Shown here: one piece after another, positions 10 through 20,788 of the stretch
Numbering within the stretch: position 1 is the first letter of the stretch
Layout of the letters: each line of letters opens with the position of its first letter
Virus record (IMG/VR): IMGVR_UViG_3300000477_000018
Coordinates: 1 to 20,788 of that record
Origin: a virus
Length of the DNA stretch: 20,788 bases
Reading direction: 5' to 3' (one strand)
Position numbers and translations under genes: made by a program
Notes under the pieces: model-generated
Told to the model about the DNA's origin: nothing
Database searches by the model: none
The model's input: the letters and a program-made list of their open reading frames with translations, nothing else

Positions 10-86
10 GTAAATAAGCGGAAACAGGCGCATTTGCGCGTTAAATTAATTTAATTGGGTTTAACCAGCGTTAAGCGGGGTTGATA
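10..86 (+). repeat. 10-bp phased motif array upstream of early promoter 1
   Basis: Motifs related to GTTAAAC begin at 10, 20 (weak), 30 (weak), 40, 50, 60, 70 and 80, exactly 10 bp apart. The clearest units are GTTAAATTAA (40), TTTAACCAGC (60) and GTTAAGCGGG (70). The last unit runs into the -35 box at 81. The same arrangement, in the same register to the -35 box, precedes the next two promoters. One helical turn of spacing suggests protein binding along one DNA face; that role is inferred. Confidence 0.6.
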
Positions 87-109
87 ATATTAATTTTATA
101 TGTTATAAT
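81..109 (+). promoter_or_regulatory. early promoter 1 (TTGATA-17-TATAAT)
   Basis: The -35 box TTGATA is at 81-86, the spacer is 17 nt and the -10 box TATAAT is at 104-109. The bases from the -10 box onward are nearly identical to those at 946-975 in front of the third gene. It would transcribe the small gene at 163. Confidence 0.75.
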
Positions 110-162
110 TAATATATAATAAATAATAATTAATAAATAAAATATTTAAGGGGGTGGGTTAA

Positions 163-342
163 ATGGGTTTTAAAAATTTACGCGAAAATTTATTTTTTAA
201 TTATTTTAAATTAAAAAATAAATTAAACGACGAGGAATTAAATATTATAATGTTAGCGAATAATATTATAATAGGAATTATTAAAAAAGACGATGAAAAA
301 ATTAATAAAAATTTACGCAAACTCGAAAAAACACTTAAATAA
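163..342 (+). CDS. small Lys/Asn-rich protein of unknown function (59 aa)
   Basis: A complete reading frame of 59 residues starts at ATG 163 (MGFKNLRENL...) and ends at TAA 340-342. It has its own promoter (81-109), a strong purine-rich ribosome binding site (AAGGGGGTG, about 148-155) and its own rho-independent terminator (354-387), so it looks like a real monocistronic gene despite its length. The product is basic and rich in Lys, Asn, Ile and Leu, with no signal peptide, membrane segment or motif that I recognise. Its unit layout matches those of the two following genes, one of which encodes a DNA-binding-like protein. A small early phage protein is the likeliest reading; no specific function can be given. 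Confidence 0.65.
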   Translation: MGFKNLRENLFFNYFKLKNKLNDEELNIIMLANNIIIGIIKKDDEKINKNLRKLEKTLK

Positions 343-353
343 CACGCAAGTTT

Positions 354-387
354 GGGGGGTTATATAAACCCCCTAATTTTTTTTTTT
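354..387 (+). terminator. rho-independent terminator
   Basis: GGGGGTT (355-361) pairs with AACCCCC (367-373) around a 5-nt loop. An 11-base T run (377-387) follows two bases after a short TAA. It closes the transcript of the 59-residue gene. Confidence 0.85.
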
Positions 388-423
388 CAGCGTAAAATAA
401 ATTAAAAAGTTTTTATATTTTGC

Positions 424-500
424 GTAATACGCAGTAAATGAAAGTTAATGTGAGTTAAACGGTGTTAAACAAGTATAAACATGTTTTACCGCGTTTGAGT
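424..500 (+). repeat. 10-bp phased motif array upstream of early promoter 2
   Basis: Units start at 424 (GTAATACGCA), 434 (GTAAATGAAA), 444 (GTTAATGTGA), 454 (GTTAAACGGT), 464 (GTTAAACAAG), 474 (TATAAACATG), 484 (TTTTACCGCG) and 494, which contains the -35 box. This is the cleanest of the three arrays. Register to the -35 box is the same as in the other two. Confidence 0.7.
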
Positions 501-523
501 TTTTATAAATTATATGTTATAAT
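495..523 (+). promoter_or_regulatory. early promoter 2 (TTGAGT-17-TATAAT)
   Basis: The -35 box TTGAGT is at 495-500, the spacer is 17 nt and the -10 box TATAAT is at 518-523. The surrounding TATATGTTATAAT and downstream ATATATAATAA are shared with early promoters 1 and 3. Confidence 0.75.
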
Positions 524-554
524 AAATATATAATAAGGAAAGGGGGTTAAACAA

Positions 555-761
555 ATGAAATTTAAAAATAAAAATATCAATGAAATTAAATTATTATTTA
601 CATTATATTTAATCGAAAAAACAAAAAGTAAATTAACAAAAACAATTAAAAATAATATCGATGATTATTTTAATGAAATGATAAGTTACAGTAACCTCGA
701 AAATTACGAAAGTTTAAAACAAATGTATTACGATTATTTATTATATTTAAATTACAGATAA
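555..761 (+). CDS. small hypothetical protein (68 aa)
   Basis: A 68-residue frame starts at ATG 555 behind a strong ribosome binding site (GGAAAGGGGG, 537-546) and ends at TAA 759-761. It has its own promoter (495-523) and terminator (772-820). The product is rich in Lys, Asn, Tyr and Leu and looks fully helical, with a Tyr-rich C-terminus (YYDYLLYLNYR). No signal peptide, membrane helix or family motif is recognisable. Codons are strongly AT-biased like those of its two neighbours and unlike those of the structural genes. It is probably a small early protein, possibly regulatory or host-directed; that is a guess from position only. Confidence 0.7.
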   Translation: MKFKNKNINEIKLLFTLYLIEKTKSKLTKTIKNNIDDYFNEMISYSNLENYESLKQMYYDYLLYLNYR

Positions 762-771
762 TATTTATAAG

Positions 772-820
772 CCGGGTTATAATTATTACAAATTAATATT
801 TATATTATAGCCCGGTTTTT
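772..820 (+). terminator. rho-independent terminator
   Basis: CCGGGTTATAAT (772-783) pairs with ATTATAGCCCGG (804-815) with one T-G wobble. The loop is about 20 nt, and TTTTT (816-820) follows directly. It lies 10 nt after the stop of the 68-residue gene. Confidence 0.75.
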
Positions 821-851
821 ACAAATTAATTAAAATTTTTTAAAATTTTGC

Positions 852-928
852 AGTAAACTACGTTATTTAACGTTAACGTAAGTTAAACGCATATAAACAG
901 TTATAACAGCGTTATAGCGTTGTTGTGT
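852..928 (+). repeat. 10-bp phased motif array upstream of early promoter 3
   Basis: Units begin at 852 (AGTAAACTAC), 862 (GTTATTTAAC), 872 (GTTAACGTAA), 882 (GTTAAACGCA), 892 (TATAAACAGT), 902 (TATAACAGCG) and 912 (TTATAGCGTT), and 922 joins the -35 box. Spacing and register match the arrays at 10-86 and 424-500. Confidence 0.65.
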
Positions 929-951
929 TTTTGTAAGTTACATGTTATAAT
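923..951 (+). promoter_or_regulatory. early promoter 3 (TTGTGT-17-TATAAT)
   Basis: The -35 box TTGTGT is at 923-928, the spacer is 17 nt and the -10 box TATAAT is at 946-951. Transcription should begin near 958, at the foot of the stem-loop at 959-994. Confidence 0.7.
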
Positions 952-1023: not shown

Positions 1024-1320
1024 ATGGCAAACAAATCGCAAAAAATTAGGCAAATATTTAAAAAAAGTAACCACAAATTAACAATTAGTAAAATTAGTAA
1101 AAAGGCGGGCGTACGTTACCAGTTTGCGTACCAGGTAATAAAACGTTATTGTAGTAAAAATAATATTACAATGCCAACAAACAAACAAAAACAAACTAAA
1201 GCCGCCAAAATACGTAAACTTTACGATAAGGGCCTAACAATAGGCGCAATTAGTAAAAAATTAAACACCAATTACACGTACGTTTGGAGCGTTTGCGATA
1301 AGTACCGCAAAAGCGAGTAA
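1024..1320 (+). CDS. protein with duplicated helix-turn-helix-like module (98 aa)
   Basis: ATG 1024 follows the ribosome binding site AAAAGGGGC; the stop is TAA 1318-1320. The protein is strongly basic and consists of two copies of one module. Copy 1 (about residues 8-45) and copy 2 (about 62-97) both read KIRxhaxK...LTIxxISKK followed by a second helix with aromatic residues (YQFAYQVIKRY and YTYVWSVCDKY). Short helix, LTI turn, ISKKx and recognition helix is what a helix-turn-helix looks like, so DNA binding is likely. Each copy resembles resolvase- or transposase-type HTH modules, but no catalytic domain is attached. It is a plausible regulator of the three units with phased motifs, including its own; this is inference. 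Confidence in the gene is high and in the exact role low. Confidence 0.75.
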   Translation: MANKSQKIRQIFKKSNHKLTISKISKKAGVRYQFAYQVIKRYCSKNNITMPTNKQKQTKAAKIRKLYDKGLTIGAISKKLNTNYTYVWSVCDKYRKSE

Positions 1321-2395: not shown

Positions 2396-3349
2396 ATGAG
2401 TAGAACAGCTGTACTTAAAGAACTCGCAGATAGAATGGACGAGCTAGTGGATTCTGTACCGACAAATCAACAGACGGGGGAACCTCGCGCTTATGTGGAT
2501 CCTTCTACAGTAACGGAAGAACTCAACGAAGAGTATCATTACAAAGTAACGACCGGAAATTCAAAGACCAATGGACTCAAAGAAGTAAACGAGAGTAACT
2601 CATTGAAAGTCCTCGAGAAAGCGACAGTACCATTGGATTATAGCGAAGGTTATCCAACAGTAGACGGTTACCCATTCTGGGAGCGTTTAGACGGTGAGCC
2701 CGAGAATTATTACCAGATGTTTAAGCACTACCGTGATACACCTCTTCGCGGTGAGAAGCGGGCGTTCGCTAAGACCGCAAGACAGTTCGACGAAAAGCCC
2801 GAAATCATGTCGGCTCTCGCTCGCGTATACCAATGGCAACAACGAGTGAAGGCCTTTGATAAGAAGCGAGATTTAGAACGCGAGATGCAGCGTGCCCATT
2901 ATATTAAGGAACTCGAAGGTGACCATTACGATGCAGCGACAAAGATCTTCGAGAAGTGTATGGAATACTTTAATAAAAACAGTAAAGCAATGAAACCCAG
3001 TGTCGCTTTAAAGTGGTTCAAAACCGCTATAGAGTTGTCTCGATTATCACTCGGCCTCTCCCCAGACAAGCCTGATGCAGAAGCGGTTAAGAACTTGCAA
3101 CAGACACTCGTTCAAATTAATAATACACCAGATAATTCAAAGAACACTATCAACGCCGTTGCGCAGTCAGGACAGGCCAAGGATGATAGAGAGCAAGAAG
3201 CCGAGCATATGCAAGAAGTTATAGATATTCTGGCAGATACAGGTCTTTTGCCAGATTCGGAGAAGAGCGACGACAAAATCACGGACATCAATACCGAACG
3301 AGGCAATCTAACCGGACCTAACGGTGGTGAGACCGATGACGACAACTAA
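2396..3349 (+). CDS. terS: terminase small subunit (probable)
   Basis: A 317-residue protein starts at ATG 2396 behind GGGGAGGGG. The small terminase recognises phage DNA and hands it to the large subunit and portal for packaging. Residues about 90-160 hold the telling segment: a Trp-Glu-Arg-Leu / GEP ... MFxxYRD motif followed by an HTH-like stretch ending in WQQRVKAFDK. This pattern is frequent in small terminases of Firmicutes phages. A helical segment (about 165-220) suits oligomerisation, and the acidic tail ends in DDDN. The N-terminal 85 residues are polar and low in complexity, making the protein longer than many small terminases. It overlaps the large terminase gene, which supports the call. 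The assignment rests on motif memory and gene order. Confidence 0.75.
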   Translation: MSRTAVLKELADRMDELVDSVPTNQQTGEPRAYVDPSTVTEELNEEYHYKVTTGNSKTNGLKEVNESNSLKVLEKATVPLDYSEGYPTVDGYPFWERLDGEPENYYQMFKHYRDTPLRGEKRAFAKTARQFDEKPEIMSALARVYQWQQRVKAFDKKRDLEREMQRAHYIKELEGDHYDAATKIFEKCMEYFNKNSKAMKPSVALKWFKTAIELSRLSLGLSPDKPDAEAVKNLQQTLVQINNTPDNSKNTINAVAQSGQAKDDREQEAEHMQEVIDILADTGLLPDSEKSDDKITDINTERGNLTGPNGGETDDDN

Positions 3350-5762
3350 TGATAGTCGGACGGGAGAAAAGCGCTTACGTGTGTCTGATCTGGAATTACC
3401 TGAGTTAAACAGACTGAAACAGAAACTCAATCCGAAGTTGACTAAGTATATACCGCACGACCCGTTCCCAAAACAGCAAGCATTTCTTTTGTTGACTCAT
3501 AAAGAAGCTTTTTATGGTGGGGCGGCTGGGGGCGGAAAAGATTTGGCAACCACGACCCCGATAATTACTGACAAAGGATGGAAGACCGTGGGCACTCTAA
3601 CAAAAGATGATCGCGTAGCGGCTCTGGACGGATCGTGGTCTGAAATAGAATACATCACACCCGAACGCGTCCCTGAGAAGTCATATCGAATCACGTTCAG
3701 TGACGGTTCACAAATAGATTGCAGTGATACACACTTATGGCTCGTCGATCGTAAAGAGCAAATTAACCGCAATCATCGACACTGGATAAATGTAGAACGC
3801 CGAGTAATGACTACTGAACAGATGATTGAAGACGGTGTACGTTATAAAGCCCACGGACGTAAAAATAAACAAAAGCGTTTTATGTTACCACAGCATCGCG
3901 GTTACAAAGGGGTAGAACGAGACTTCGATGACGTGTCGCCGTACTTACTCGGTTTGTGGCTAGGCGACGGTCGATCAATACGTGGTGAGATAGCTACCGG
4001 TGATGAAGATGTTTTACACGTTGTTGAAAAGTTATACGAGCGCGATCGAGACATCGAAATAATTGATACTAACTCAAATTGTAAGATAATACGTATAAAA
4101 GGTTTGACTGAACAGTTGAGAGAATTAGGAGTGTTAAATAATAAACACATTCCTTTAGAACATAAATTAGCAAGTAGAGACCAACGTTTACGTTTATTAC
4201 AGGGGCTCATGGATAGTGATGGATATATACAACAACGAGGACGTGCAGAGTGGGGACAAAAGGCAGAGCGGCAACAACTATTCGACGATGTATGTGAACT
4301 CGTGGCAAGTCTCGGATATAAGTACAGTACAACCGTTGCTCCTTCTACTTATGACGGACAAGAATTCCCCAGTAATCGTATCACATTTACACCTCGTGAG
4401 GTAGTCGCAACCATTCCTCGTAAACGTGCACGTATAAAAGATGATGGTAAACAAGATTACAATTCTGCCATATACATTGAAAAGATTGAAGAGGTAGATT
4501 CCGTACCCATGAAGTGTATCCGCATTAAACATGAAAGTCATACATTCCTCGTTGGCAAATCGCAAATACCAACGCATAACAGCGATGCGCTCTTGATGGC
4601 GGCATTACAGTTCGTGGATGTTCCTGGGTACGCCGCGATCCTTTTTAGAAAGACGTACAAAGAGCTGGCGTTACCAGAGGCGTTGATTTTTCGTGCCAAA
4701 GAGTGGTTAACTCCGTATATGAACAGTGGAGAGGTTCGTTGGTCGGAACAAGATAAGATGTTCACGTTCCCGAGCGGTGCTACTCTCTCTTTTGGTTATC
4801 TGGAGACAGACACCGACATGTCGCGTTATCAATCAGCAGAATTTCAATTTATCGGTTTTGATGAGTTGACACACTTCAAAGAGAAACATTACCGTTATCT
4901 ATTCTCACGGTTAAGAAGACTCAAGGGCGTGGACATTCCATTGAGAATGCGTGCGGCCAGTAATCCAGGAAGTCAGGGACATGAGTGGGTAAAACAACGT
5001 TTCTTGATAGACGGACCCAGTGAGGGCAGGATATTTATCCCAGCCACGTTAGATGACAACATCCACATCGATAGAGAAGAATATATGAAGTCTCTACAAG
5101 AGTTAGACCCGATCACGCGAGAACAGCTTGAGAAAGGTGATTGGGACATAGAGCCCGAAGGAAACATGTTCAAGCGCCAGTGGTTCGAGATCGTGGAAGC
5201 GGCACCATCCAGAGCAGCACGTGTCCGATACTGGGACTTAGCTGCAACCCAAGAAGCTCCCGGGAAAGATCCAGATTGGACCGTGGGTGTGAAGATGGCA
5301 GCTAAAGATGGGATTTATTACATCGAAGATGTACGCAGAGTTAGGGAAGACCCTGCCGGTGTAGAACAGTTGGTGAAACACACAGCCCAACTCGACGGTA
5401 GAAGCGTGCCGATATTCATGGAGGAAGAGCCTGGATCGTCAGGAAAGAACAACACATATCATTATCAAAGATATGTATTGAGTGGTTTTACTTTCGAAGG
5501 TGACCGTGTCACCGGATCTAAAGTCATTCGCGCCAATCCGTTAAGTTCGGCCGCAAAAGCGGGAAATGTCAAGATTGTCCGTGGTGCGTGGAACAGCGAT
5601 TTTCTCGACGAGATCGCACTATTTCCTCTTGGTAATTACAAAGATCAAGTAGACGCGACGAGTGGAGCGTTATCTAAGATTAATGAGAAAAACGTAGTCC
5701 AATCAGATCCAGAAGCCATGGAGGCGCTGAGAGGAGCAAGAGTATACTCTAGAACGATGTAA
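3336..5762 (+). CDS. terL: terminase large subunit interrupted by an intein
   Basis: This is the ATP-driven DNA packaging motor and nuclease. I prefer ATG 3336 (808 aa), since GGTGGTGAG lies just before it; GTG 3324 would add four residues and has no such site. The gene overlaps the small terminase stop by 14 nt. The Walker A motif GGAAGGGK (61-68) is cut after its Lys by a 347-residue intein (69-415), and the host protein resumes at SDALLMAAL. Walker B is FIGFDE (Asp509, Glu510). The C-terminal RNase H-like nuclease shows YWDLA (Asp634), DWTVG (Asp647) and DQVDATSGA (Asp770, Asp773). After splicing the protein would be 461 residues, normal for the family. The uncorrected product would lack a working ATP site, so packaging depends on splicing. 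Confidence 0.93.
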   Translation: MTTTNDSRTGEKRLRVSDLELPELNRLKQKLNPKLTKYIPHDPFPKQQAFLLLTHKEAFYGGAAGGGKDLATTTPIITDKGWKTVGTLTKDDRVAALDGSWSEIEYITPERVPEKSYRITFSDGSQIDCSDTHLWLVDRKEQINRNHRHWINVERRVMTTEQMIEDGVRYKAHGRKNKQKRFMLPQHRGYKGVERDFDDVSPYLLGLWLGDGRSIRGEIATGDEDVLHVVEKLYERDRDIEIIDTNSNCKIIRIKGLTEQLRELGVLNNKHIPLEHKLASRDQRLRLLQGLMDSDGYIQQRGRAEWGQKAERQQLFDDVCELVASLGYKYSTTVAPSTYDGQEFPSNRITFTPREVVATIPRKRARIKDDGKQDYNSAIYIEKIEEVDSVPMKCIRIKHESHTFLVGKSQIPTHNSDALLMAALQFVDVPGYAAILFRKTYKELALPEALIFRAKEWLTPYMNSGEVRWSEQDKMFTFPSGATLSFGYLETDTDMSRYQSAEFQFIGFDELTHFKEKHYRYLFSRLRRLKGVDIPLRMRAASNPGSQGHEWVKQRFLIDGPSEGRIFIPATLDDNIHIDREEYMKSLQELDPITREQLEKGDWDIEPEGNMFKRQWFEIVEAAPSRAARVRYWDLAATQEAPGKDPDWTVGVKMAAKDGIYYIEDVRRVREDPAGVEQLVKHTAQLDGRSVPIFMEEEPGSSGKNNTYHYQRYVLSGFTFEGDRVTGSKVIRANPLSSAAKAGNVKIVRGAWNSDFLDEIALFPLGNYKDQVDATSGALSKINEKNVVQSDPEAMEALRGARVYSRTM
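3540..4580 (+). other. class 3-type intein with LAGLIDADG homing endonuclease, inside terL
   Basis: Block A is DLATTTPIITDKGW, with Asp where class 1 inteins have Cys or Ser. Block B carries Trp in SDTHLWLV (Trp135 of the host ORF counted from ATG 3336). Block F has Cys394 (MKCIRIKHESHTFLVG). Block G is PTHN with Thr413, ending His414-Asn415, then extein Ser416. This Trp-Cys-Thr triplet plus a non-nucleophile first residue is the signature of class 3 inteins, in which the block F Cys starts the reaction. Between blocks lies a two-motif LAGLIDADG endonuclease (LGLWLGDG about 205-212; LLQGLMDSDGYI about 287-298), so the element can probably home. The insertion point directly after the Walker A Lys is a known intein hot spot. 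The second half is more AT-rich than the flanking exteins. Confidence 0.88.
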
Positions 5763-5773
5763 ATAATAGGAAA

Positions 5774-7348
5774 GTGAGGCGGAAAGCATTGGGAATTAAA
5801 TCAGGTTTTTCCAAAGCAAAAAACAGAATAGCCAGCGAGATAAGACGTCTCGGCGACTGGTATCCGATAGCACGTATGAGTGGCGGAAGACTCACCAGTA
5901 AGTACAGTCTTGTGAGTAAGAAGAGGGTAAGCCCTCAACTCGCACGACAACTGTACTACAATAGCCACGATGATTATAAACTAGGTGGTGGGCTGGCCAA
6001 GCCTATAATAAACACCGCTGTTGGATTTATGGGAACGCCCCGTATGAAGGTAGAAGACGAAGAGGCGTCGGAAGTTCTAACCTCTTTTATGAATGAGAAT
6101 ACATCGAAAACACAACGGACGCATCGAAATACACTTCGAGACGGGCGCTCTTATGTTCGGTTGACACGATCACAGTTGGGCTATTCGGCACTCTACCCAG
6201 AGAAGGACGCAGTCTTACGATATCAGATATTAAAACCTGAAGAAATACAAGAAGTGGAAAAGCACGTCTTCACGGGAGAACCCATCCGGTATGTGATTGA
6301 GACTACACACCAGATATCGGATAGTACAGAATCCACGATTACACAAGAGATAACTCCGGACACCATTGAGACATCGGTTCGGGGTGAAGCACCTGAAGGT
6401 CTCGAAGAAGGTATAGCAGACAATCCATGGGGATTTATTCCCATTGTGGAATTCAATAACGAGAAAGAATCGGACCAAGTAGAACCGCGAAGTGATTTAG
6501 AGGGTGTAGAACCTTATATCAAGGCTTATCACGACGTGTTTCTACACGCTATTCAAGGTTCTAAACTACACTCCACGCCCAGATTGAAAATGACGGTAAA
6601 GGACGTAGCAGGGTTTCTGCAGAATAACTTTGGTGTTACAGATCCACAGAAATTCATTAAAGAAGGAAGACAGATCGATCTCGAAGACAAAGACCTCCTC
6701 ATATTCACCGAAGAGGGAGAAGATGCAGAATATATAGAGGTAGAGTCGGCAATCGGTTCGGCAGAGCCTTTACTACATCTAATATTTTATTGTATAGTGG
6801 AGAATTCCGAGACACCAGAATTCACGTTCGGGGCGCATCTACCTGCAAACTACGCATCGGTACGTGAACAGATGCCTGTCTTGATCAGAAAGGTCAGCCG
6901 GAAGAGAGAAGCCGTGAACGAACCTTGGAGTCGTCTCGCTAGATGTGTATTGGCGATGACGAGTATAGCGGAGAACAGGCATTTTTCTACACACCAGACT
7001 GAACTCGATTGGGACACTATAGACCCACGAGATTCCGGTGAGAAAGCTGAAGAACTCTCCAATGTAGTAGATGCACTAACCGACGCACTAGATGCGCGGA
7101 TAATATCCCACAAAACTGCGGTAGACTATCTGCGCAGATTTGTAGAGGACATGCCCGCATACGCAGAGGACGACGAAGACCGAAGCGAACGAGACCGCAT
7201 ACTCCAAGGTATAGACGAACTATACCCCAATGGTACCGACGACGGTAATGGAGAGATTGACCCAGGTAATGCTTTTCAAGCAGAGGTAGTAGAGTTGTTC
7301 GAAAAATATCACACGGGAACAAACAACGCCCGTGAAGGTGGTGGGTGA
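5774..7348 (+). CDS. portal protein
   Basis: The dodecameric portal forms the DNA entry vertex of the head and docks the terminase. The 524-residue length fits the SPP1 gp6-like family. Typical features are an N-terminal LARQLYYNSHDDY segment, GGGLAKPIINTAVGFMG, the DGRSYVRL strand near residue 120, a NPWGFIPIVEFNN segment (about 215-228) and a long helical stem region followed by FGAHLPANYASVREQMPVL (about 350-370). The C-terminus is acidic. GTG 5774 lies 11 nt after the terL stop; TTG 5789 is another possible start, since a GAGGCGG-like site precedes it. It sits between large terminase and the head genes as expected. Confidence 0.88.
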   Translation: MRRKALGIKSGFSKAKNRIASEIRRLGDWYPIARMSGGRLTSKYSLVSKKRVSPQLARQLYYNSHDDYKLGGGLAKPIINTAVGFMGTPRMKVEDEEASEVLTSFMNENTSKTQRTHRNTLRDGRSYVRLTRSQLGYSALYPEKDAVLRYQILKPEEIQEVEKHVFTGEPIRYVIETTHQISDSTESTITQEITPDTIETSVRGEAPEGLEEGIADNPWGFIPIVEFNNEKESDQVEPRSDLEGVEPYIKAYHDVFLHAIQGSKLHSTPRLKMTVKDVAGFLQNNFGVTDPQKFIKEGRQIDLEDKDLLIFTEEGEDAEYIEVESAIGSAEPLLHLIFYCIVENSETPEFTFGAHLPANYASVREQMPVLIRKVSRKREAVNEPWSRLARCVLAMTSIAENRHFSTHQTELDWDTIDPRDSGEKAEELSNVVDALTDALDARIISHKTAVDYLRRFVEDMPAYAEDDEDRSERDRILQGIDELYPNGTDDGNGEIDPGNAFQAEVVELFEKYHTGTNNAREGGG

Positions 7349-10962: not shown

Positions 10963-10993
10963 TATAACTAATTATTAGGAGGTGAATATTAAT

Positions 10994-12037
10994 ATGTCTG
11001 TTAAAATTTATAGTATTGAGTCTTTACGTAAAGAGAACAGGAATAAGAATATAGAAACAGAAATTCCTTATGAAGTAGCAGGCGAGACACGCCGTGTACC
11101 GAAAAAAATGGTCAACGGTGAGTTGGAAGTGCCTGTACTATCAAAGCCGGCCGGTGAGTTAATGACTACAGATCCCGGCATGGAGGAAATGATGGAGAAG
11201 GTAGTTCTCGACGTCGAATTAGGTCGAGAGCGAGTACCTACCGTCTATGAACCTATTTATGATAGATTGGAAGATCCCAATTTCCCACGTATCTTAGATG
11301 CTAAGTGGGCACTGGAAGGAATGTGTATCTTCCTTAAGAGATTAGAGGGTAACGACGTGAAAATGGGAGCTATCGCGGCACACGAAGGACCTATTGCCCG
11401 AATTGAATCTTGGGCAGCAGGCTTCGAGTACACCGAAGAGATGGTTCTTTATGATCACGGATTTGAGGTAGAGGTGTTGAACAGAGCATTCGGCGAAGCT
11501 TACAACGCTTTACTGAACCACATCCATCTATTTCCTATTATCGACTTTAATTATACCAGTGATAACCAAACCTCTTCTGAGGGAGAAGATGGAGAACCTT
11601 ACGCGTTGCAGATCAAGAAAACCTTGAGGCAAGCGCTTAAGGATTGCGTCAACGCGCGTAGACCTGCCAATACATTGTTAGCCAGTAAAGAACACGCCGG
11701 CGATATCGAGGATGCTCTCGAGACAATGTTATACGATGGTACAGAGTACGCTTCTATAGGTGCTATCGACAACATCATCTACTACGACGGATGGCAAACC
11801 AAAGTAGGTAAGAAGACTTACACCTACGAAGGATGCCCTAGTGATAAGGCTTATCTCATTAGACCTAATCGTGGATTCAAAGAGCTCGTCAAAGTGCCTC
11901 TGAGAATTGACGGACAACCTGGGCCAATCCGTCGATTAGTAGAAGAACAAATCGTCGGTAGAACCCACCGTGGAGTATTCGCGGCTGTTGAAGAAAATGT
12001 CCAAGAAGTGAACATTGATGAAGTAACTAACGAATAA
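10994..12037 (+). CDS. major capsid protein
   Basis: The HK97-fold shell protein is the likeliest product. ATG 10994 is chosen because AGGAGGTGA (10978-10986) would overlap an upstream GTG at 10982; the product is then 347 residues, a usual length. Features include an N-terminal arm, a long helix-rich part (GMCIFLKRLEGNDVKMGAIAA), an Asn- and Ser-rich loop (NYTSDNQTSSEGEDGE), and a C-terminal P-domain-like end (AYLIRPNRGFKELVKVPLRI, then GRTHRGVFAA). It is acidic throughout. The order protease-scaffold, decoration, capsid and then connectors supports the call more than any single motif. The strong ribosome binding site fits a highly made protein. Confidence 0.8.
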   Translation: MSVKIYSIESLRKENRNKNIETEIPYEVAGETRRVPKKMVNGELEVPVLSKPAGELMTTDPGMEEMMEKVVLDVELGRERVPTVYEPIYDRLEDPNFPRILDAKWALEGMCIFLKRLEGNDVKMGAIAAHEGPIARIESWAAGFEYTEEMVLYDHGFEVEVLNRAFGEAYNALLNHIHLFPIIDFNYTSDNQTSSEGEDGEPYALQIKKTLRQALKDCVNARRPANTLLASKEHAGDIEDALETMLYDGTEYASIGAIDNIIYYDGWQTKVGKKTYTYEGCPSDKAYLIRPNRGFKELVKVPLRIDGQPGPIRRLVEEQIVGRTHRGVFAAVEENVQEVNIDEVTNE

Positions 12038-15044: not shown

Positions 15045-15088
15045 AAATAACTAAAACTGGCTAATTAAAGCCGACTGATTAAAACCGG
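15045..15088. repeat. degenerate 14-bp tandem repeats
   Basis: About three successive units, TAACTAAAACTGGC, TAATTAAAGCCGAC and TGATTAAAACCGGA, run up to the ribosome binding site of the next gene. They resemble the AATTAAACGAC core in other gaps (about 10147 and 20737). Confidence 0.45.
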
Positions 15089-20736: not shown

Positions 20737-20788
20737 ATTAATTAAAACGACAAATTAATTAAAACGACAAATTAATTAAAACGACAAA
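20737..20788. repeat. perfect 17-bp tandem repeat at the window end
   Basis: ATTAATTAAAACGACAA occurs three times without change at 20737-20753, 20754-20770 and 20771-20787, and may continue past the window. It begins 7 nt after the tape measure stop and includes AATTAAAACGAC, the same core as in gaps near 10147 and 15060. Confidence 0.85.

Follow-up and report, generated by a model that had tools for sequence, protein, structure and literature searches.

Why should three promoters at one end of a viral genome fragment each be preceded by a row of short, degenerate motifs about 10 bp apart, and what might read such rows? We addressed this question in the IMG/VR virus record IMGVR_UViG_3300000477_000018, a linear fragment whose entire 20,788 bp are referred to here as the window. 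The left 1.3 kb of the window carries three small genes with one sigma-70-like promoter apiece, and the packaging and head module of a tailed phage lies downstream (terS at 2396, terL at 3324 and the portal gene at 5774). The elements of this left part are:

10-79, plus strand: array A1, seven 10-bp units (GTAAATA, GGAAACA, GCATTTG, GTTAAAT, TTTAATT, TTTAACC, GTTAAGC), lag-10 z 4.4
80: eighth unit, GTTGATA, overlapping the -35 element of P1
81-109, plus strand: promoter P1, TTGATA-17-TATAAT with TG before the -10, -35 at 81
163-342, plus strand: small ORF of 59 aa, function unknown, with an AAGGGGG ribosome-binding-like site upstream
352-376: terminator after the 59-aa ORF
424-493, plus strand: array A2, seven 10-bp units (GTAATAC, GTAAATG, GTTAATG, GTTAAAC, GTTAAAC, TATAAAC, TTTTACC), lag-10 z 5.6
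495-523, plus strand: promoter P2, TTGAGT-17-TATAAT with TG before the -10, -35 at 495
555-761, plus strand: small ORF of 68 aa, function unknown
about 771-820: readable terminator between the 68-aa ORF and array A3
852-921, plus strand: array A3, seven 10-bp units (AGTAAAC, GTTATTT, GTTAACG, GTTAAAC, TATAAAC, TATAACA, TTATAGC), lag-10 z 3.4
923-951, plus strand: promoter P3, TTGTGT-17-TATAAT with TG before the -10, ahead of the tandem-HTH gene
1024-1320, plus strand: gene for a predicted tandem-HTH protein of 98 aa, a putative phage relative of Cbp1/Cbp2 and the candidate array-binding protein
1333-1352: terminator after the tandem-HTH gene

The window sequence is confirmed by PUNK01000030.1 (L145), a separate assembly of the same virus with 99.85% identity over 3278 bp, which adds 693 bp leftward, with another small ORF and, some 670 bp before the window start, a fourth promoter of the paralogous set. 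This contig (L145 1-3970) sits in the MAG bin of a Thermoplasmata archaeon, which is probably a binning error, since the promoters, terminators and ribosome-binding sites are of bacterial type. Positions 380-490 of L145, to the left of the window, are G-rich, with repeated GGGGTACG-like words that are roughly 8-bp phased by eye. Elsewhere in the window, the terL gene (3324-5762) is interrupted at the ATP-binding loop by an intein, part of which is homing-endonuclease-like, and at the end of the record (20737-20788) a 17-bp unit, ATTAATTAAAACGACAA, is repeated perfectly 3.1 times, with a related 14-bp repeat at 15048-15087. An Rfam search and a tRNA search of the sequence gave no match.

The first-pass annotation of this DNA had described series of GTTAAAC-like motifs recurring every 10 bp before the three promoters, and this description agrees with the sequence base for base: the units start at 10, 20 and so on to 70 in A1, at 424 through 484 in A2 and at 852 through 912 in A3, and the next unit (80, 494 and 922) begins exactly one base before the TTG of the -35 element (81, 495 and 923), as had also been claimed. 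The autocorrelation that it proposed as a check reveals a 10-bp period above shuffled controls at all three arrays, with lag-10 z values of 4.42, 5.64 and 3.36 for A1, A2 and A3, respectively, against 2000 dinucleotide shuffles; the chance of any lag from 5 to 15 reaching such a z is 0.0005, <0.0005 and 0.015. The best-register match of six units to GTTAAAC, a consensus itself derived from A1-A3, has p-values of 0.003, <0.0005 and <0.0005. Among 199 control promoters, 6% reach a lag-10 z of at least 4; this set is inflated because it contains duplicate contigs and was fetched with a decamer pattern. In a sliding map of the window, 10-bp phasing stands out at P1-P3 and, more weakly, at the terS promoter. 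The profile of the 21 units, G(13) T(15) T(15) A(18) A(18). C(11), is nearly palindromic; a TpA step is present in 19 of them, and three are exactly GTTAAAC. The annotation had further held that the motifs vary while the phase is constant. The variation is plain, and the pitch is near 10 bp but not exactly 10, the spectral estimates being 9.9, 9.9 and 9.5 bp for A1, A2 and A3 (p <0.003, 0.01 and 0.007).

Since the P1-P3 regions are paralogues, with core identities of 67-81%, their common register is partly inherited. The P2 and P3 arrays are co-linear and 65% identical in register. The P1 array matches that of P2 or P3 at 0.55 when slid by one unit (10 bp), versus 0.45-0.48 unslid, and we therefore rejected the view that co-linear paralogy alone gave P1 the register of P2/P3; that the slid match is at least as good suggests that word and pitch have been maintained beyond co-linear copying. 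As for similar arrangements elsewhere, a search of viral contigs for exact GTTAA decamers yielded some 100 stretches. Most were unrelated simple repeats, an in-register promoter was rare among them, and none was homologous to the present arrays. A promoter-core pattern search matched unrelated phages that lack arrays. Three unrelated viral contigs carry GTTAA every 10 bp directly 5' of promoter-like sites (L009 at about 6278-6312, L013 at 1297-1331 and L099 at 1570-1604), perhaps as an independent promoter architecture.

Further arrays, with other pitches, lie between the tandem-HTH gene and terS:

1363-1488, unstranded: 9-bp array of about 14 units (TTATAAGTA TTGCAAAAA CTTTCAATA CTTACAAAC TTATAAACA and so on), local lag-9 z up to 3.8
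1594-1787, unstranded: 8-bp lattice with its units in four sets of four (e.g. GTTTAATA GTTTAGAG GTTTAACC GACGAAAC), local lag-8 z 3.2-3.8
2183-2304, unstranded: segment ahead of the terS promoter, weakly phased at 10 bp (z 2.4-2.9) with another word that is rich in A-tracts, CTTTAGAAAA
2305-2333, plus strand: terS promoter, TTGAAA-17-TATAAT
2396-3349, plus strand: terS, small terminase subunit (PHROG 6299, E 2.5e-15), the conserved neighbour of the tandem-HTH gene

In the sliding map, the 9-bp phasing spans 1308-1550, the 8-bp phasing 1483-1850, and the weak 10-bp phasing 2183-2357. Each set of the 8-bp lattice closes with a 16-bp palindrome, such as GTTTAACC-GACGAAAC (palindromes at 1610, 1652, 1708 and 1772). 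Two 66-nt arms that are 80% complementary and contain AAGTTTTGCAAAAACTT-like words are also found at 1354-1540, where they overlap the 9-bp array.

The AlphaFold2 model of the 98-aa protein encoded at 1024-1320 is all-helical, without any strand, and comprises two three-helix HTH domains (predicted helices 4-14, 21-28 and 32-46, then 59-68, 73-80 and 84-97; pLDDT 90.6, pTM 0.55), the low pTM suggesting that the two domains are probably flexibly linked. The NCBIfam Cbp1 model is matched by all 24 homologues (best E 7.6e-12) and Pfam HTH_23 by 22 of the 24, while P0001 scores 22.2 bits against the Cbp1 model, far under the curated cut-off of 140 for an equivalog. The top Foldseek match is Cbp2 (2lvs), with an E-value of 0.042 and a probability of 0.95, not significant by itself, and Cbp2 (2lvs) is matched at 5e-5 by profile. 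We claim no family from the fold, since all VIA-align matches have Z under 8. A small-terminase PHROG is weakly matched by six of the 24 homologues, and a late-activator PHROG is matched weakly at E 0.0099. On the predicted fold and the profile matches, the protein would be a phage relative of Cbp1/Cbp2 with tandem HTH domains. Single-HTH homologues of 55-70 aa also adjoin terS (L162 77-283, L163 605-814 and L164 4165-4329), and are possible ancestors or partners of the tandem form.

Close relatives of this protein were found neither by a single-sequence search of IMG/VR nor in named phages; homologues emerged only when an alignment was used, on about 20 further contigs, and their genes adjoin terS/terL in nearly all loci. 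In these loci the half-site GTTTMNYC (one mismatch allowed) sits on an 8-bp lattice, in both direct and inverted orientation. Same-strand pairs at 8, 16 and 24 bp number 34, 22 and 21, versus 3.1, 2.0 and 2.6 in shuffles, and convergent pairs number 57, 21 and 16, versus 1.5, 0.3 and 1.2. As the motif was first seen in the window, G004 and L148, before the family lattice, circularity was addressed with held-out loci, from which the motif-derivation loci are excluded: they hold 64, 32 and 25 pairs at 8, 16 and 24 bp and far fewer at most other spacings, with some smear beside 16 and 24 bp, and they are partly non-independent, the HTH proteins of L154 and L155 being closely similar. In 217 kb of control non-coding DNA the distribution is flat, without half-site peaks at 8, 16 or 24 bp. 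The 16-bp palindrome of two half-sites (at most one mismatch) occurs 36 times in 250 kb of family loci versus once in 1.13 Mb of control loci, which were gathered by pattern searches and include duplicates. Units in opposite orientation on one lattice are not expected from slippage. The general maximum z differs only modestly between family and control loci (medians 3.75 versus 2.45, p 3e-4), since tandem repeats raise the control values, and the lattice test is much sharper. An unsupervised EM motif search picked out TTCNGAANNTTCNGAA in G001 and, in L154, a GTTAAC pattern at 8 bp; it was swamped by base composition in several loci, and dyad counting and half-site spacing were used in its place.

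The lattice is not uniform across these phages. In the closest relative, G001, whose capsid-region protein is 67% identical to the product of window positions 10982-12037 and whose HTH protein is 52% identical to that of the window, TTCNGAA recurs on a 9 to 9.5 bp lattice across 2.4-2.8 kb of non-coding DNA up to terS, and no GTTT palindrome is found; L159 likewise carries TTCNGAA at 9 bp. The palindrome of the window is common to phages whose HTH proteins are more distant than that of G001. Three loci, L157, L158 and L164, carry the gene yet show no lattice pair or a single one. The lattice was not found in the named capsid or terminase relatives without a full homologue (phiCD27, psiM2, psiM100, BSP7 and Youna2), of which only Youna2 has a weak HTH-family match, elsewhere in its genome and one single-mismatch palindrome. 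Ahead of bacterial phages, the archaeal phages psiM2 and psiM100 (about 49%) are the nearest named relatives of the G001 large terminase (L133 4763-6181). The arrays at promoters are more restricted. Across 47 wider-family promoters there is no signal at lag 10; the terS promoter of G001 does give one (z 5.7), and that of the window a weak one (z 2.4-2.7). Outside this virus, the G001 promoter is the one place where a 10-bp promoter array like those at P1-P3 was found. The same array in related phages, which had been suggested as a further check, is thus not generally conserved.

The statement that no phage control system of such a form has been described was too strong, as comparable arrangements exist in the omega heptads at three promoters, the ParR iterons and protein p6 of phi29. 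Omega (ParB of pSM19035) binds 7-10 contiguous heptads over the promoters of three genes, its own included, in direct and inverted orientation, each lone unit being weak (PMC9499535, PMC5016525). The present units are likewise short and contiguous, occur in direct and inverted orientation, and overlap three promoters, one of which belongs to the candidate's own gene. However, omega units are 7 bp long, whereas those found here measure 9.5-10 bp at promoters and 8 and 9 bp elsewhere, and omega is a ribbon-helix-helix protein, whereas the candidate is modelled as an all-helical tandem HTH; no ParA partner was seen in the window fragment. In ParR/parC, iterons of about 10 bp stand in a row around the promoter, much as here, and the nucleoprotein filament autorepresses (PMC5016525), but ParR is a ribbon-helix-helix protein with an actin-like partner, neither of which is seen here, no ParM-like protein being present among the subset of proteins scanned in the 20.8-kb fragment. 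The p6 system resembles the proposed one in that a protein of the phage coats periodic DNA and silences an early promoter, and the pitch differs among relatives, being 12 bp in phi29 and 11 bp in GA-1 (PMC10899789); it differs in that p6 reads bendability at 11-12 bp, whereas the half-site here is base-specific, the pitch is 8-10 bp and the protein has HTH domains. Cbp1 lays three HTH domains along a CRISPR repeat of 24-25 bp and forms chromatin-like coats or arrays with Cren7 that suppress or favour promoters (PMC10883916). By this arithmetic, each HTH domain of Cbp1 would cover about 8 bp, since three of them span one repeat, in agreement with the lattice described here. Cbp1/Cbp2 and the candidate are both small proteins with tandem HTH domains; for the candidate it is further proposed that, as in Cbp1, each domain takes about 8 bp of repeat DNA and that the protein coats the DNA. 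Unlike them, the present protein is encoded by a phage beside terS, has two HTH domains, scores far below the Cbp1 cut-off and has no known CRISPR link, and its putative sites are contiguous units of 8-10 bp rather than 24-25 bp repeats with spacers.

Our tentative reading, which we consider plausible, is that the arrays are rows of weak sites for a small phage DNA-binding protein, likely the Cbp1-like tandem-HTH protein encoded at 1024-1320, and that the early promoters are probably repressed by it. One unit of 8-10 bp would be recognized per HTH domain, and with molecules bound next to each other a series of poor, degenerate sites could turn into a coated segment. The units are spaced by 8 or 9 bp away from promoters; at the three early promoters the spacing is close to one turn (9.5-10 bp), and there the arrays run into the -35 element and the coat would end on one face, that on which sigma and the alpha subunits sit; contact between coat and RNA polymerase is suggested by the register of the arrays. 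Over the last unit the coat could compete with sigma region 4, and accumulating protein might then shut the strong early promoters, its own gene's included. We propose repression and autoregulation because the -35 element is overlapped by the last unit and the gene of the candidate itself lies behind the third array; repression is the likely outcome, with activation as a second possibility. Protein architecture, synteny and co-occurrence point to the 98-aa protein as the candidate binder, and the different word in G001 weakens this assignment: since that word differs while more distant HTH phages share the window palindrome, either recognition has changed rapidly or the sites are read by some other protein. 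To serve all three pitches, a single protein would also need a flexible linker, the lattice is absent or reduced to a single pair in some loci with the gene, and promoters of the wider family lack 10-bp arrays. The earlier idea of a protein lining phased sites is nevertheless the better supported one, given that the related lattice is sequence-specific with sites in both orientations, that the candidate has a tandem-HTH architecture, and that relatives without the gene lack the lattice; its corollary of a single DNA face does not hold generally, since pitches of 8 and 9 bp are seen in the related lattices. A broader version, which we regard as doubtful though possible, is a phage chromatin in which the terS-adjacent Cbp1-like protein coats non-coding DNA with a pitch tuned by place and lineage (8, 9 or 10 bp), the one-turn form shutting early promoters or handing the DNA to the late packaging stage.

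For the promoter arrays, the chief competing explanation is that they are extended UP elements, in which A/T-rich minor grooves once per turn upstream of the -35 element hold the alpha C-terminal domains of the host RNA polymerase, giving strong promoters without any phage protein. The A/T maxima of P1-P3 do fall at about -43, -53, -63 and so on, in register with the proximal (-45 to -37) and distal (-58 to -45) UP subsites (PMC2613000), and these early promoters are otherwise strong, of the extended -10 type. Described UP elements, however, lie at about -60 to -37 (PMC2613000), whereas the arrays extend to about -106, with a TpA step in nearly every unit and the order GTT..AAC instead of A-tracts, and alpha domains would not explain similar words at 8 and 9 bp off promoters; with TpA steps and non-promoter lattices opposing it as a full answer, we judge this explanation unlikely. 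Phased bending dispenses with sequence-specific reading altogether: A/T and TpA steps once per turn would curve or soften the DNA, which then wraps RNA polymerase or a histone-like protein. A wedge model with assumed curvature parameters gives net bends of 69 degrees for A1 and 77 degrees for A2 against about 35 in shuffles (p 0.037 and 0.023), but A3 is no more bent than its shuffles (p 0.42), so that the modelled curvature is modest and in A3 absent. That p6 of phi29 reads bendability in a 12-bp repeat and turns off an early promoter (PMC10899789), and that the terS promoter of the window is weakly 10-bp phased with a different word, would suit bending; lattices at 8 and 9 bp would not sum bends in phase, and a specific half-site flipped on one lattice indicates base reading, which makes bending quite unlikely in our estimation.

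Two other possibilities start from the position beside terS. The arrays, at least those next to terS, could belong to a packaging start site, with either the small terminase or the HTH protein, acting together with it, as the reader, as the adjacency of HTH gene, lattices and terS in nearly all loci and the weak small-terminase matches of some homologues would allow; we find this improbable, with lattices that span kilobases (in G001 the non-coding DNA up to terS), phased arrays before early promoters, and TerS genes also present in relatives without lattices. Alternatively, the protein could be a late-gene regulator of the RinA/ArpU type, the early arrays having another cause. Its gene lies immediately upstream of terS, the late-activator PHROG is weakly matched, and the terS promoter of G001 is preceded by 10-bp phasing; yet no family-level match to RinA or ArpU was obtained, and arrays are also found at early promoters and far from promoters, leaving this reading very improbable.

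The DNA at the left of the window looks like a docking track for a coat protein made by the virus itself, which probably controls the three early genes. Should binding to the lattice be as proposed, the early genes and terminase region of a phage lineage would be controlled by a coat written in the sequence, with a pitch that can be read from the genome. Such a system would then offer a route to study how HTH arrays count base pairs and how two HTH domains tolerate 8, 9 and 10 bp, and it would show a change of specificity (GTTTMNYC to TTCNGAA) under a constant architecture. Cbp1, known as an archaeal CRISPR-repeat protein, would join a broader repeat-coating family that includes phages, and the lattice itself provides a sequence signature for finding such phages.
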